Assembly: GCA_005889345.1 (NCBI GenBank)
Contig: VBFR01000190.1
Location: 1-46,740, forward strand
DNA from: Chloroflexota bacterium
GTDB taxonomy: Bacteria; Chloroflexota; Dormibacteria; CF-121
DNA length: 46,740 nt
Direction of reading: 5' to 3'
Shown here in pieces: positions 41,109 to 46,740 of the stretch; position 1 is the first letter of the stretch, and each line of letters opens with the position of its first letter. The position numbers and the translations under genes are program-made. The notes beneath the pieces were generated by a model. That model was not told where the DNA came from and searched no databases. It was given only the letters and a program-made list of their open reading frames with translations.

Positions 41109-41819
41109 CTACCGGCCGAGCGCCAACCGCGCAGCCTCGACCTCAGGCAACCCCGCCGCCAGGATCTTGGCCTGGGTGGTCACGATGTCGTAGGGGACAC
41201 GCCCGAAACACACCGCGGGCCGGCTCAGGTCCACGGTGGCGAAGGCCGCCTCCGGGTTGCCGTCGCGAGGCTGGCCGACGCTTCCGGGATTGATGAGCGC
41301 GGCGGCCGGGAGCGTGATCCATTCACCCGGCTTGGGAATGTCCTCACCCTCTGCCGTGAAGATCCGGGGCAGGTGCGTGTGGCCGAAGAAACAGAGGCGC
41401 GGGCCGAGCCGCACCAGGATCTCGAGTGCTTGGAGATCGTCAAGGATGTACTCCCAGAGGTAGGGTTTGCGCGGGCTGCCGTGCACGTAGCGGTGCGGAC
41501 CCAGCCGCCCGAACTTGGGCAAGCTCGCGAGGTAGCTCCGGCTCTCGGGCGTAAGGACAGTCCGGGTCCAGCGGGCAGCAGCGGCCGCGTGCGGATTGAA
41601 CCAGTCGAGCAGGGACGGAGCGAGCATCGCCGCGTCGTGGTTGCCCATCACGGCCCGCGCCCGCGCGGAGCGGAGCCGAGTGATCACCCCATTCGGATCG
41701 GGCCCATAGCCGACGATGTCGCCCAGCACGATGATGCGGTCGACCTCGGGAAGAGCGTCGAGAACCGCGACCAGCGCCTCGAGATTGCTGTGAATATCGG
41801 ACAGCAGGGCAAGCTTCAC
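41109..41819 (-). CDS. metallophosphoesterase (YfcE-like)
   Basis: LLSDIHSNLEALVAVLDAL, IIVLGDIVGYGPDP, VMGNHDAAM, FFGHTHLP. Confidence 0.93.
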   Translation of the reverse strand: MKLALLSDIHSNLEALVAVLDALPEVDRIIVLGDIVGYGPDPNGVITRLRSARARAVMGNHDAAMLAPSLLDWFNPHAAAAARWTRTVLTPESRSYLASLPKFGRLGPHRYVHGSPRKPYLWEYILDDLQALEILVRLGPRLCFFGHTHLPRIFTAEGEDIPKPGEWITLPAAALINPGSVGQPRDGNPEAAFATVDLSRPAVCFGRVPYDIVTTQAKILAAGLPEVEAARLALGR

Positions 41820-41867: not shown

Positions 41868-42971
41868 TCAGGCGTAGACGCGTTCGTGGGCGTAGATGAA
41901 GAGAATGCGCAGTGTGGCCGCGACCGGAACCGCGACGAACAGTCCGAGGATCCCTCCCAGATAGCCCCCCACCACAAACGCGATGATGATCAGCATCGGG
42001 CTCAGGTGGACAGCATCGCCGAAGACTTTCGGTGAGATGAAGTTGTAGACGACGTTGGAGATGACGAAGTAGAGGACCAGCACCAGGACAACCTTGCCCG
42101 ATGACTGCGACACGAAAGCGGCGACGGCGACCGCAGGCAGGGCTCCCAGGAACGGACCGATGAACGGAATGAAGGCGGTCACGCCGGCGACGATCCCCAG
42201 CGCCAGTGAGTAGGGAACACCGACGATCCACAGCGCAATGCCGGTGACCAATCCGATGAGCGCGCAGATCACCAACTCGCCGCGCATGTAGGCACCCAGC
42301 ATGCGGTAGACATCGGCGGCGACCTCATGCGCGTCGGTGCGGTAACCCTGCGGCACCAGGCCGCGGAAGAACCGCCGGATGGAGTGCGCGTCCTTCATGA
42401 GGAAGAACGCCACCAGGAGCACCAGGATCGTTTGGAAGATCCAGTTGACCAGCATGAATACGTTCTCGACGACCGACGATAAGTGACCGGCGAGCAACGC
42501 CGGCAGGTTGCGAACCGCGTCCATGTAGGCCTGCCGGAGATCGATCGGAATGCCGAGGATGGAAACGACGTGGTCCTTGTCGGCGAGGTCCTGGAAATAG
42601 CTCGCGATGGCCGGGCCTTGCGCGACGAGCGAGGTGAACTCCTGCGTCACGATGGGCGCGAGGAAGAAGACCGCGGCCGCCAGCACCGCGGCGATGATGC
42701 TGTAGAGCGCGAGAACGGCGGCCAGCCTGGGCACGCGGCGCCGCTCGGCTGCGTTAACGACCGGGTTCAACATCATGGCCAGGACCCCGGCGAGGATGAA
42801 CGGCCCCAGGATGCCGCGGATGGCGAACGCCAGGATCAGGGCCAGGGCGGCCAGGACGCCAAGGAAGATCAGGGCGCGGAAGTCCCGGCTCCGCCACAGC
42901 TCATCCACCCGGCGACGCTGGATCATCGCGGCATTACCCACCTGTTGAAACGAGGAATCCGAGCCTCGCAT
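41868..42971 (-). CDS. AI-2E family transporter
   Basis: multi-TM; YSLALGIVAGVTAFIPFIGPFLGALPAVAVA; SPKVFGDAVHLSPMLIIIAFVVGGYLGGILGLFVAVPVAA. Confidence 0.92.
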   Translation of the reverse strand: MRGSDSSFQQVGNAAMIQRRRVDELWRSRDFRALIFLGVLAALALILAFAIRGILGPFILAGVLAMMLNPVVNAAERRRVPRLAAVLALYSIIAAVLAAAVFFLAPIVTQEFTSLVAQGPAIASYFQDLADKDHVVSILGIPIDLRQAYMDAVRNLPALLAGHLSSVVENVFMLVNWIFQTILVLLVAFFLMKDAHSIRRFFRGLVPQGYRTDAHEVAADVYRMLGAYMRGELVICALIGLVTGIALWIVGVPYSLALGIVAGVTAFIPFIGPFLGALPAVAVAAFVSQSSGKVVLVLVLYFVISNVVYNFISPKVFGDAVHLSPMLIIIAFVVGGYLGGILGLFVAVPVAATLRILFIYAHERVYA

Positions 42972-42992: not shown

Positions 42993-43580
42993 TTACCGAG
43001 AGGGGCTCGAGCCATACGCCGGCTGGAGATCACGACCGCGCTGGCTGCAGCGAATGATGAGCCAGGCGACCCCGGCTGCCATCAGGAGGTCGCCGATGCT
43101 GACCAGCGACGAGTGGCCACCGATGCTGGGAATATTGAAGATATCGCCGATGAACCAGAGACCCTGGGGATGCTGGAGGGGGACGTGTAGCGGGTCCAGC
43201 CCACCCCGCAGCAGGGCCAGGATCGGAGAGTTCGGGTCCGCATCGCGGGGCAACAGCACCGGCATGCGACCGCCGAAGGCCAGGATGACAATCAGGTTTA
43301 ACGTCAACCCTGCAGCGAATAGAAGGGCGCCGGGGATTCGCCGGTTGAACCAGACGACGACCAGCAGCAGGACGGCCCCGATGACGTTGAGGGGCCGGGC
43401 GGCGGTGACGGCGATCGATGAGTGCGCTGTGCCGAGCAGTGCTACCGCGACCTTGGTGGCAAACGCCGCCAGCAGCACTTCGAGATGCCGGATCCGCAGC
43501 TGGCTCAGCCGGCGAACATCGCCGCCAATGATGACGGCAATCGCCAACGCGGCGGCGATGACCGCGAAGAAAAGGAACAC
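42993..43580 (-). CDS. DUF5317-like membrane protein
   Basis: GGDVRRLSQLRIRHLEVLLAAFATKVAVALLG; multi-TM. Confidence 0.65.
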   Translation of the reverse strand: MFLFFAVIAAALAIAVIIGGDVRRLSQLRIRHLEVLLAAFATKVAVALLGTAHSSIAVTAARPLNVIGAVLLLVVVWFNRRIPGALLFAAGLTLNLIVILAFGGRMPVLLPRDADPNSPILALLRGGLDPLHVPLQHPQGLWFIGDIFNIPSIGGHSSLVSIGDLLMAAGVAWLIIRCSQRGRDLQPAYGSSPSR

Positions 43581-46138
43581 TAGCTAGCCGAAGCGGCTGC
43601 TTTCAGCGGTTCGGAGACGGGGACCTTGCGCATCGTCGCGTTTCTCAGATCCGGGAAGGCGAAGCCAACGGCGGCTGCGCACACAAGGAGGAAGCCTGCC
43701 GTGACGAACACGATCGGCGCTCCCAATCGATCGGTCAAGGGCCCCGAGAGCCCCATCCCAGCCAGCAGACCCAGCTGTACCAGGAGGAAACGCGTCGACA
43801 TTACCCGGCCTCGAAGCCGATCAGGCGCCTCGGCCTGAGTTACGGAAATCAGTGAGACGTAGTAGATCGTATTGGCCACTCCGCTGAGAAACAGGAAGAC
43901 GGCGGCCGTCGGAACACTCCGGGAAAATCCGGTAAGAGCGGCGGCGAGGCCGGTTCCGCCAACACCCGCAAGGATCAGAGCGCCTGCCGGCCAACGGTTC
44001 ATCACCCCCGGTGCGGCGAGAGCACCAACGATGGCGCCGGCGCCAATGGCGGCCTCGAGGACGCCGTATCCGAAGGCGCCACCGCCCAGAGGTCCAAACG
44101 CCATCACCACAAGGATTGGGACTGTCAAGCTGCCGAAGATTACCGCGACAAACGTCAGTCCCATCGTCGACCGCAACGTCCGGTTGTTCAAGACGAAACG
44201 GCTCCCTTCCCTGATGTCGTCCAGCAACCGAACGGTACGGGCCTGGATTCGAGTCCGGTCCGCAACTCCGAGCAGGGTGATGGCGGATACGATGAAAGTG
44301 GCTGCGTCGACGATAAAGAGTGGCTGCCACGATGCTAATGCTGCGATCAGTCCGGCCAATGAAAAGCCCAACAGCTCCATCGTCTTCTCGGACGACGATA
44401 TGAGGCTGTTGGCCTTCACGAGGAACTCGGCCGGCACCAGGTTTGGCAGAATCGCCTGCTTTGCGGGGTTGAATAGTGTGCTGGCTGTCGCGACCAGGAA
44501 GACGACGATAAAGACCCCCGGCAGCCATGTAAGAGCCAAGAAGGGGATCGTCACTGTCATGACGGCACGTGCGATATCGCTCAGAATCATGACCCTCTGC
44601 CGATTGAAGCGATCAACAAGCGCCCCCGCGATCAACCCAAATAAGACGGTTGGCGCGGCTTTCGCGATAAGGCCGAGGGCCACGACGGACGGCGAGTGAG
44701 TAACCAGGAACAGCATGATGGCCAGCCCGGTTGTATTCATCATGTCGCCGAAGTAGGAAATGGCCTGGCCGATCCAGAGGAGTCGGAAGGGTCTTATTGC
44801 GAGGACTTCTCGGAAGCTAATTGATCGTGCGGCTGGAGCTAGCGGCCCCTCAAGGTGGACACCCCAACGCTCGGCGACAATCTTTTCGAGAGCGGCGATT
44901 ACTTTCGGGTCGTACCAGGTCCCGGCAAGGCCGTGCAACTCACGAATCGCTTCCTCTGGCGTCTTGACCGTTGGTCGAAAGACCCGGGCCTGGGTGATGG
45001 TATCGAAGGCGTCGCACGCGTTGACGATTCGAGAGCCGATCGGTATCTCTTCACCCTTGATAGCGTCGGGATAACCTGCCCCATCCCACCTCTCATGGTG
45101 ATGATGCAGGATTTGAGAGACCTCTCTTTGCTCTGGATGCTCGGCGAGGATTTGGGCGCCCTCAACCGGATGGGTCTTGATGATTTCGTATTCTTCCGGG
45201 GTTAGCTTTCCAGGTTTCAGCAGGATCGAATCGGGAATTGCAATTTTCCCGAGATCGTGCAGAATGCCGCCGACCCTAATCGTGTTGGAAGCCTCCTCGT
45301 TCATACCCAGCAGCCGCGCCACCGCCTCGCTTAGCTCACCGACGCGCTGGGAGTGACCAAATGTCTGGCCATCACGCTTGTCAACGACGCGGCTCTGCAT
45401 GATGTACGAGTCACGCAACCACGTATCGAGCTGACGCTGTTTCTGCATGCTCGCCCGATAAATCAGAAGCGGTGCGTATAGCAAGAAAACCACCAGGCGG
45501 TCGGTAAAGCGAGGCCCCGTCACCAGATGGGCGACAAGCACGCCCGTTAATGGAAGTGCCAAGTAGGTAAGCGCATTGCCCGCGAGCGCACCCTGAATGG
45601 TGGCGATCAATCCCGAACCCCTAAGCAGGCTGATTGAAGTGGCCATCAATGTCGTGTTCAGAGCAATGCTGACTAGGGCTGCCAGGAACAAGAGGAATGG
45701 CGTTGTGGTTGGGCTATGTCTCAGGGCATCCGAAACCAGGAGACTTGGGATGCCATACGAGAGAATCCACATCCCGCGGTTGAAGGCAAATCGGTTCCAC
45801 GGAATCTGTTTTCCGGGAACCCGGAGGTCGATGGTACCGAGCGCCGCCGCGGTCATCACTGCCCAAGGGGGCAGCGGCAAGGCTACGGCGCCGAAGAGCG
45901 GGGCCAGGGTCACCGACAGCGTTCCTCCGCCGCGAGTCTCAATAGGGGAAAGCCCGGAGAGAAACGTAAGCACAACCAGAACCAGTAGCTCCTGATAGGT
46001 GCTATCGGTAAGGAAGTTTGCGCCGCTCCGCCACGGTGCGGCATCCACCAGGGTCCAGATCCAGAGTGCCAGACCACTGACTGCAACGAGCCAGATGTAA
46101 CGAGGGGCGAGCCAACTACGGCGCATCCAAGAGCCCAC
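43580..46138 (-). CDS. TM sensor region + HD-GYP + MFS transporter fusion
   Basis: continuous 852-aa ORF: HDLGKIAIPDSILLKPGKLT, HHHHERWDGAGYPDAIKGEEIP, then 12-TM-like region with GALVDRFNRQRVMILSD. Confidence 0.88.
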   Translation of the reverse strand: MGSWMRRSWLAPRYIWLVAVSGLALWIWTLVDAAPWRSGANFLTDSTYQELLVLVVLTFLSGLSPIETRGGGTLSVTLAPLFGAVALPLPPWAVMTAAALGTIDLRVPGKQIPWNRFAFNRGMWILSYGIPSLLVSDALRHSPTTTPFLLFLAALVSIALNTTLMATSISLLRGSGLIATIQGALAGNALTYLALPLTGVLVAHLVTGPRFTDRLVVFLLYAPLLIYRASMQKQRQLDTWLRDSYIMQSRVVDKRDGQTFGHSQRVGELSEAVARLLGMNEEASNTIRVGGILHDLGKIAIPDSILLKPGKLTPEEYEIIKTHPVEGAQILAEHPEQREVSQILHHHHERWDGAGYPDAIKGEEIPIGSRIVNACDAFDTITQARVFRPTVKTPEEAIRELHGLAGTWYDPKVIAALEKIVAERWGVHLEGPLAPAARSISFREVLAIRPFRLLWIGQAISYFGDMMNTTGLAIMLFLVTHSPSVVALGLIAKAAPTVLFGLIAGALVDRFNRQRVMILSDIARAVMTVTIPFLALTWLPGVFIVVFLVATASTLFNPAKQAILPNLVPAEFLVKANSLISSSEKTMELLGFSLAGLIAALASWQPLFIVDAATFIVSAITLLGVADRTRIQARTVRLLDDIREGSRFVLNNRTLRSTMGLTFVAVIFGSLTVPILVVMAFGPLGGGAFGYGVLEAAIGAGAIVGALAAPGVMNRWPAGALILAGVGGTGLAAALTGFSRSVPTAAVFLFLSGVANTIYYVSLISVTQAEAPDRLRGRVMSTRFLLVQLGLLAGMGLSGPLTDRLGAPIVFVTAGFLLVCAAAVGFAFPDLRNATMRKVPVSEPLKAAASAS

Positions 46139-46185
46139 AGTACCCTAAGGGATAACTCGTGTACCGACGCTTTCTGGCCGCAAAA

Positions 46186-46213
46186 AAAAGCCCGGGCTAT
46201 TGCCCGGGCTTCT
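46186..46213. terminator. bidirectional rho-independent terminator
   Basis: aaaaaaaagcccgggc-tatt-gcccgggcttctttat. Confidence 0.85.
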
Positions 46214-46226
46214 TTATATCAACGAG

Positions 46227-46301
46227 CTACCAGCCCCAGCCTGCGCCGCCGGCCAATATGGCACAAAGCAGGCCCACGACCACGACAATCATCTTCTTCA
46301 T
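46227..46301 (-). CDS. 24-aa membrane micropeptide candidate MKKMIVVVVGLLCAILAGGAGWGW
   Basis: ATG to TAG ORF on minus strand ending just before terminator; single hydrophobic helix. Confidence 0.5.
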   Translation of the reverse strand: MKKMIVVVVGLLCAILAGGAGWGW

Positions 46302-46442: not shown

Positions 46443-46740
46443 CTAAATGTCGAGTTGGACCGCGTGGGCGGCCGCTTCGGCGCGTGTTCGCACCTGCAGT
46501 TTGCGGTAGATGTTGCGCAGGTGGGACTTGATCGTCCCCTCCCCGAGGCTCAGCCGGCTGGCGATCGCTTTGTTGCTCATGCCCTCTACGACCATCCGGA
46601 CGATCTGGGTCTCCCGTTCGGTGAGCGGATCGGCCAGCGGCCGGCGAGATCGCTTTAGGGCTGAACCCAACCGCACGATCACTCGGCGCGTGAGGGCATC
46701 ATCGAGCTGGAACCGGCCCGCGTGGGCGTCCTGGATACTC
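46443..46740 (-). CDS. LuxR-type HTH regulator, C-terminal part (runs past window)
   Basis: LTERETQIVRMVVEGMSNKAIASRLSLGEGTIKSHLRNIYRKL; frame open to window end. Confidence 0.88.
   Translation of the reverse strand, partial: SIQDAHAGRFQLDDALTRRVIVRLGSALKRSRRPLADPLTERETQIVRMVVEGMSNKAIASRLSLGEGTIKSHLRNIYRKLQVRTRAEAAAHAVQLDI

Follow-up and report, generated by a model that had tools for sequence, protein, structure and literature searches.

The window (the whole stretch of 46,740 nucleotides analysed here) is an entire contig of a 3.23-Mb MAG from a soil Chloroflexota bacterium. On its minus strand, at 43580..46138, lies a gene that, on the evidence of the ORF, of Pfam and of relatives, encodes a MASE9-like membrane domain, an HD-GYP domain and an MFS transporter in one polypeptide (the fusion). 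The frame is open for 852 codons from a GTG without interruption, and as similarity to relatives begins only at about residue 5 the start is likely to be the ATG at 46126, which gives a protein of 848 aa. Pfam matches were HD_5 (PF13487) at residues 248–413 (E 1.3e-42), MFS_3 (PF05977) at 447–829 (E 1.7e-35) and MFS_1 (PF07690) at 454–794 (E 5.2e-33). An AlphaFold2 model (mean pLDDT 76) has N-terminal membrane helices, the HD-GYP domain and the MFS helices, with a single long helix (residues 216–255) running into the HD-GYP domain and a linker at 430–439 with pLDDT below 50. All on the minus strand, the parts are an N-terminal multi-helix membrane domain of divergent MASE9 type (aa 5–215, 45494..46126; profile score and model helices), a long helix connecting it to the HD-GYP domain (aa 216–250, 45389..45493; model and 84% mean pairwise identity), the HD-GYP domain itself (aa 251–425, 44864..45388; PF13487, metal ligands and GYP motif, structural matches), a variable linker (aa 426–446, 44801..44863; 39% mean identity and low pLDDT) and an MFS_3/DHA1-like transporter domain (aa 447–832, 43643..44800; profiles, motif A and Foldseek). 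The original prediction was of a single ORF joining a membrane sensor, HD-GYP and MFS, and the motifs that it quoted are found here; Pfam, the model and homologues across two families all agree with it. Its three-part polypeptide, multi-TM N-terminus and complete HD-GYP domain therefore stand, while it had left out the minus strand, the overlapping DUF5317 gene, the separate-gene arrangements found elsewhere, the MASE9-type identity of the N-terminus and the change of E185 to Q described below. Its suggestion of an exporter and of signalling coupled directly to transport is hypothetical.

The next gene on the minus strand (42993..43580) encodes a DUF5317 membrane protein (PF17248, 6.1e-28; 98.2 bits against a Pfam cut-off of 25) and begins with a GTG that overlaps the fusion stop codon. 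It is followed by a gene for an AI-2E family transporter (41868..42971, minus; PF01594, 2.1e-64), which by synteny is a conserved downstream neighbour both in the window's family (f1) and in a second family of the same class (f3), and by a calcineurin-like metallophosphoesterase gene (41109..41819, minus; PF12850), also a conserved neighbour by synteny. Upstream, at the contig end, lies the C-terminal part of a LuxR-type regulator (46443..46740, minus), recognized by reading the sequence and by its conserved upstream position. Between the regulator and the fusion is an ORF for a 24-aa hydrophobic peptide (46227..46301, minus), found at 11 of the 11 f1 loci checked, with differences by codon position of 197/94/471, a strong third-position bias; at the f3 loci checked this region holds a different conserved peptide, basic and of about 23 aa. 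A terminator-like hairpin (46188..46211, no strand assigned; one found, 0.7 expected in shuffles) separates the peptide ORF from the fusion gene and similar hairpins occur in the upstream sequence of relatives. Right before the fusion start (46126-46180, minus) the f1 relatives conserve a GTTAT...TTAAGATAC-like stretch, a possible promoter; a sigma-70 scan found none.

Counting the fusion across genomes, as the original prediction had proposed, placed it in 14 of the 18 genomes of f1 (relatives recorded as Chloroflexi soil MAGs, CF_ isolates; three of these copies incomplete, at contig ends or broken) and in 15 of 21 genomes of f3 (some at contig ends, one broken), in a class that we take to be GTDB Dormibacteria. 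None of 22 genomes from the families f2 and f4 carried it, it was not found outside the class in 400 Chloroflexota genomes (about two matches per genome scored), and no HD-GYP/MFS fusion was seen in 199 Actinomycetota genomes. Homologues are full-length in both families (60–75% identity within f1, 31–34% in f3), which argues that the fusion is not due to chance. In all computable pairs dN/dS was 0.00–0.15 in the N-terminal domain, the helix, HD-GYP and both MFS halves, indicating that every domain of the fusion is under purifying selection. Averaged over the pairs of 11 f1 fusions, identity was 50% for the N-terminal domain, 84% for the helix, 87% for HD-GYP, 39% for the linker and 76% and 64% for the N- and C-terminal halves of the MFS domain, and that of DUF5317 was 81% (n = 9, f1). 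Gene order is shared between the f1 and f3 loci, which run from the LuxR-type gene through the fusion and the AI-2E transporter to the metallophosphoesterase; in the HD tree a branch supported at 99% sets the f1 and f3 fusions apart and the MFS tree groups them with 93%, so that synteny and trees together point to one fusion event in the f1/f3 ancestor. Among the incomplete copies, two (G010 and G006) run into contig ends, and those of G007 and G033 break within HD-GYP and not at the HD-GYP/MFS junction, for which reason the latter pair was rejected as proof of separate genes. In this pair (L019 and L036) about 30–38 residues around the HD diad are missing in addition to a frameshift; either repeated HD-GYP sequence was collapsed during assembly or the gene is truly inactivated.

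The N-terminal 215 aa of the fusion gave no Pfam match over threshold. The best match was to MASE9 (PF20972; 15.7 bits, cut-off 24.3), and as five homologous partners from Bacillota, retrieved with the same local profile, score 20–38 bits (four of them 26–38, one 20), we read the window N-terminus as a divergent MASE9. The f3 loci L139–L143, L145 and L146 have, upstream of the fusion and divergent from it, a MASE9-like gene; that of L140 is a histidine kinase by Pfam and that of L139 looks similar.

In the HD-GYP domain H262, H294, D295, H323, H347, H348 and D376 are retained in all the f1 and f3 fusions compared, and the GYP motif (G355-Y356-P357) is invariant among them. The fusion has equivalents of PmGH H189, H221, D222, H250, H276, H277, D305, K225 and D183 (PMC4159591). 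The position of the third-metal ligand E185 of PmGH is taken by Q258 in f1 and by Tyr in f3 as well as in almost every Bacillota member; the fusion thus lacks the glutamate that marks the trinuclear subclass and its site is probably dinuclear. In PmGH the E185A change lowers activity but does not abolish it. Dinuclear HD-GYPs are presumed to halt after one hydrolysis step (PMC8177086), and with Q258 in place of the glutamate a linear-dinucleotide product, or another dinucleotide substrate, is possible. Foldseek matched the domain to the structures of PmGH, PA4781 and DvhD, and by sequence its nearest solved relative is a 3'3'-cGAMP phosphodiesterase. The substrate of an HD-GYP is not predictable from sequence; the fusion is predicted to hydrolyse a cyclic dinucleotide, c-di-GMP being plausible because the genome carries 15 GGDEF domains and cGAMP being possible.

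The fused MFS copies keep motif A (GALVDRFNRQR) and the acidic residue of a Gly-Asp in TM1, and Foldseek matched the domain to MdfA, NorA and VMAT. By fold and motif A it is assigned to the major facilitator superfamily; none of the named exporter models (TIGR00900, NCBIfam) reached its cut-off against it. The motif-C region in TM5 reads GFSLAG in the window, as against the GPALGG type in L127.

A DUF5317 gene adjoins the fusion in the f1 fusion loci examined. In f3 the fusion occurs without an adjacent DUF5317, so the two are not strictly tied. Other Chloroflexota families have the same parts in other arrangements, either as overlapping genes in the order MASE9-HD-GYP, DUF5317, MFS (L080, L081, L082, L086 and L093) or as a MASE9-HD-GYP gene followed by a DUF5317-MFS fusion (17 DUF5317-MFS ORFs, three of them partial duplicates of others). 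As the latter fall at two separate positions in the HD tree, the DUF5317-MFS fusion probably arose twice. The extra N-terminal part of separate MFS genes, considered as a cNMP-binding domain, proved to be DUF5317. Separate genes with an intact stop in relatives had been named in the original prediction as the sign of a local fusion or sequencing error; they do exist in other Chloroflexota families but not in the window's family, and their keeping the same parts as neighbours argues that the module is real. One in-frame TAG, directly before the HD motif, was seen in the MASE9-HD-GYP gene of G204 (L079).

The association of DUF5317 with HD-GYP extends beyond the phylum. With adjacency defined as an HD-GYP ORF on the same strand no more than 600 bases away, 30 of 31 sampled Bacillota DUF5317 loci have such an ORF (28–29 minus weak or partial matches), usually MASE9-HD-GYP, and no MFS was seen at these 31 loci. 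Among the best 30 Chloroflexota DUF5317 matches 18 adjoin an HD-GYP and a 19th (G011) has one in the wider stretch; adjacency by chance would be about 1–2%, as estimated from HD-GYP density (about 14 genes/3.2 Mb). The domain occurs in 84/301 Chloroflexota and 63/200 Bacillota genomes, and some of its genes have no HD-GYP alongside. At a second f1 locus a MASE9-like domain is fused directly to DUF5317 (hhalign 92.6%, P 4.5e-7; controls <1%); this MASE9-like-DUF5317 fusion, without HD-GYP, was seen at L127, L128, L129, L130 and L132; in the genome to which the window belongs it lies on contig C14. In family f21 second DUF5317 genes (L166, L178) overlap or follow GGDEF-EAL genes. The AlphaFold2 model of DUF5317 is weak (mean pLDDT 63.7), and neither Foldseek with this low-confidence model nor a PDB sequence search gave a credible match. 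A literature search found no paper naming DUF5317, and one on HD-GYP with MFS fusion and on MASE9 found nothing relevant; the HD-GYP-MFS architecture is real and conserved, and apparently undescribed. MASE9-HD-GYP and DUF5317 probably form an old membrane signalling pair, itself undescribed, with the MFS as a later addition. The HD and MFS trees are compatible with the pair being older, without proving the order; a single recruitment of the MFS was neither shown by the trees nor rejected by the AU test (p 0.6 and 0.33).

Our preferred interpretation, held with moderate confidence, is a three-part membrane signalling module in which MASE9-type domain and DUF5317 sense, HD-GYP hydrolyses and the MFS is tethered. 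The MASE9-type domain, probably together with DUF5317 in a physical complex that we infer, would sense a membrane or extracytoplasmic cue, the conserved helix would relay it to HD-GYP, and HD-GYP would then hydrolyse a cyclic dinucleotide, with c-di-GMP the likeliest. The MFS would be a working transporter tied to the sensor, most simply moving the sensed compound, and its tethering would co-localize signal and transport at 1:1. The conserved sensor helix and the variable MFS linker suggest MASE9 as the side at which the signal comes in. Fusion of the HD-GYP gene with the MFS gene would have taken place in the lineage of the window, DUF5317 remaining as the overlapping next gene.

The signal might instead come from the transporter, with HD-GYP gated directly when the MFS binds or moves its substrate, by analogy with CbrA, in which a histidine transporter (SLC5) is joined to a kinase (PMC7096432) and whose transporter is bound by the small peptide CbrX (PMC13022988). 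That precedent for transport and signalling in one chain (PMC7096432, PMC13022988), the upstream ORF for a conserved small peptide, comparable to CbrX in the case of CbrA, and the apparent retention of the fusion since the f1/f3 common ancestor (99% in the HD tree, syntenic loci) make this possible, though distinctly less probable than the tethered arrangement, because the linker joining HD-GYP to the MFS varies and has low confidence in the model, in contrast to the helix from sensor to HD-GYP, and MASE9-HD-GYP is common without an MFS. Somewhat more doubtful still is its fullest form, an undescribed machine in which the MFS directly gates second-messenger hydrolysis, built on an ancient MASE9-HD-GYP/DUF5317 pair and possibly with a CbrX-like micropeptide. 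The dependence could also run the other way, with HD-GYP acting chiefly as a regulator of the MFS that responds to or hydrolyses c-di-GMP, or the MFS exporting the cyclic dinucleotide or its product. In Listeria c-di-AMP is exported by MFS proteins, and in the fusion HD-GYP has its active-site residues intact and directly precedes the MFS; such control would, however, make the N-terminal sensor superfluous, and MASE9-HD-GYP exists without MFS, so we consider it improbable. That three neighbours co-expressed for unrelated reasons were fused with no functional coupling would fit the differing arrangements between families and the f3 fusions without adjacent DUF5317, but is very unlikely given the three or more arrangements that link the same parts in different families, the probable double origin of DUF5317-MFS fusions and an HD-GYP/DUF5317 pairing that crosses phyla. 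An assembly or frameshift artefact or local fusion, which the single MAG contig and the broken copies in two relatives might suggest, is ruled out for practical purposes by the assemblies of about 25 species from two families, which show the same architecture without interruption, and by dN/dS values that are everywhere well below 1.

Signalling proteins linked to a transporter are rare, and the examples known here are kinases; if the module functions as proposed, an HD-GYP version would link transport with the turnover of cyclic dinucleotides. From the comparison DUF5317 also gains a first functional context, as a membrane partner of MASE9-HD-GYP proteins, and this partnership is testable in cultivable Bacillota without a transporter in the way. 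Taken part by part, the fusion resembles known systems. EntS/MFS_3 and MdfA-like exporters share the fold, motif A and TM1 acidic residue of its MFS domain, which differs from them in being joined to HD-GYP and in falling under the NCBIfam named-exporter cut-offs. PmGH (PDB 4MCW, a trinuclear c-di-GMP phosphodiesterase) shares all metal ligands but one, D183/K225 and GYP, whereas the fusion has Q258 for E185, is probably dinuclear and carries a transporter that PmGH lacks. The MASE9 + HD-GYP membrane phosphodiesterases, widespread without any MFS and represented by the Bacillota and Chloroflexota relatives, have the same N-terminal membrane domain, connecting helix and intact HD-GYP; the window fusion adds the C-terminal MFS, and its MASE9 is under the Pfam cut-off. 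With CbrA (SLC5-STAC-histidine kinase) the components differ, the window having MFS and not SLC5, HD-GYP and not a kinase, and its transporter at the C-terminus; no SLC5, STAC or histidine kinase domain was detected in the fusion, for which Pfam gives HD-GYP and MFS only, and the 24-aa peptide ORF is set apart from the fusion gene by the hairpin. What the fusion has in common with CbrA is the design, a transporter and a signalling enzyme in one polypeptide with a small peptide gene upstream.
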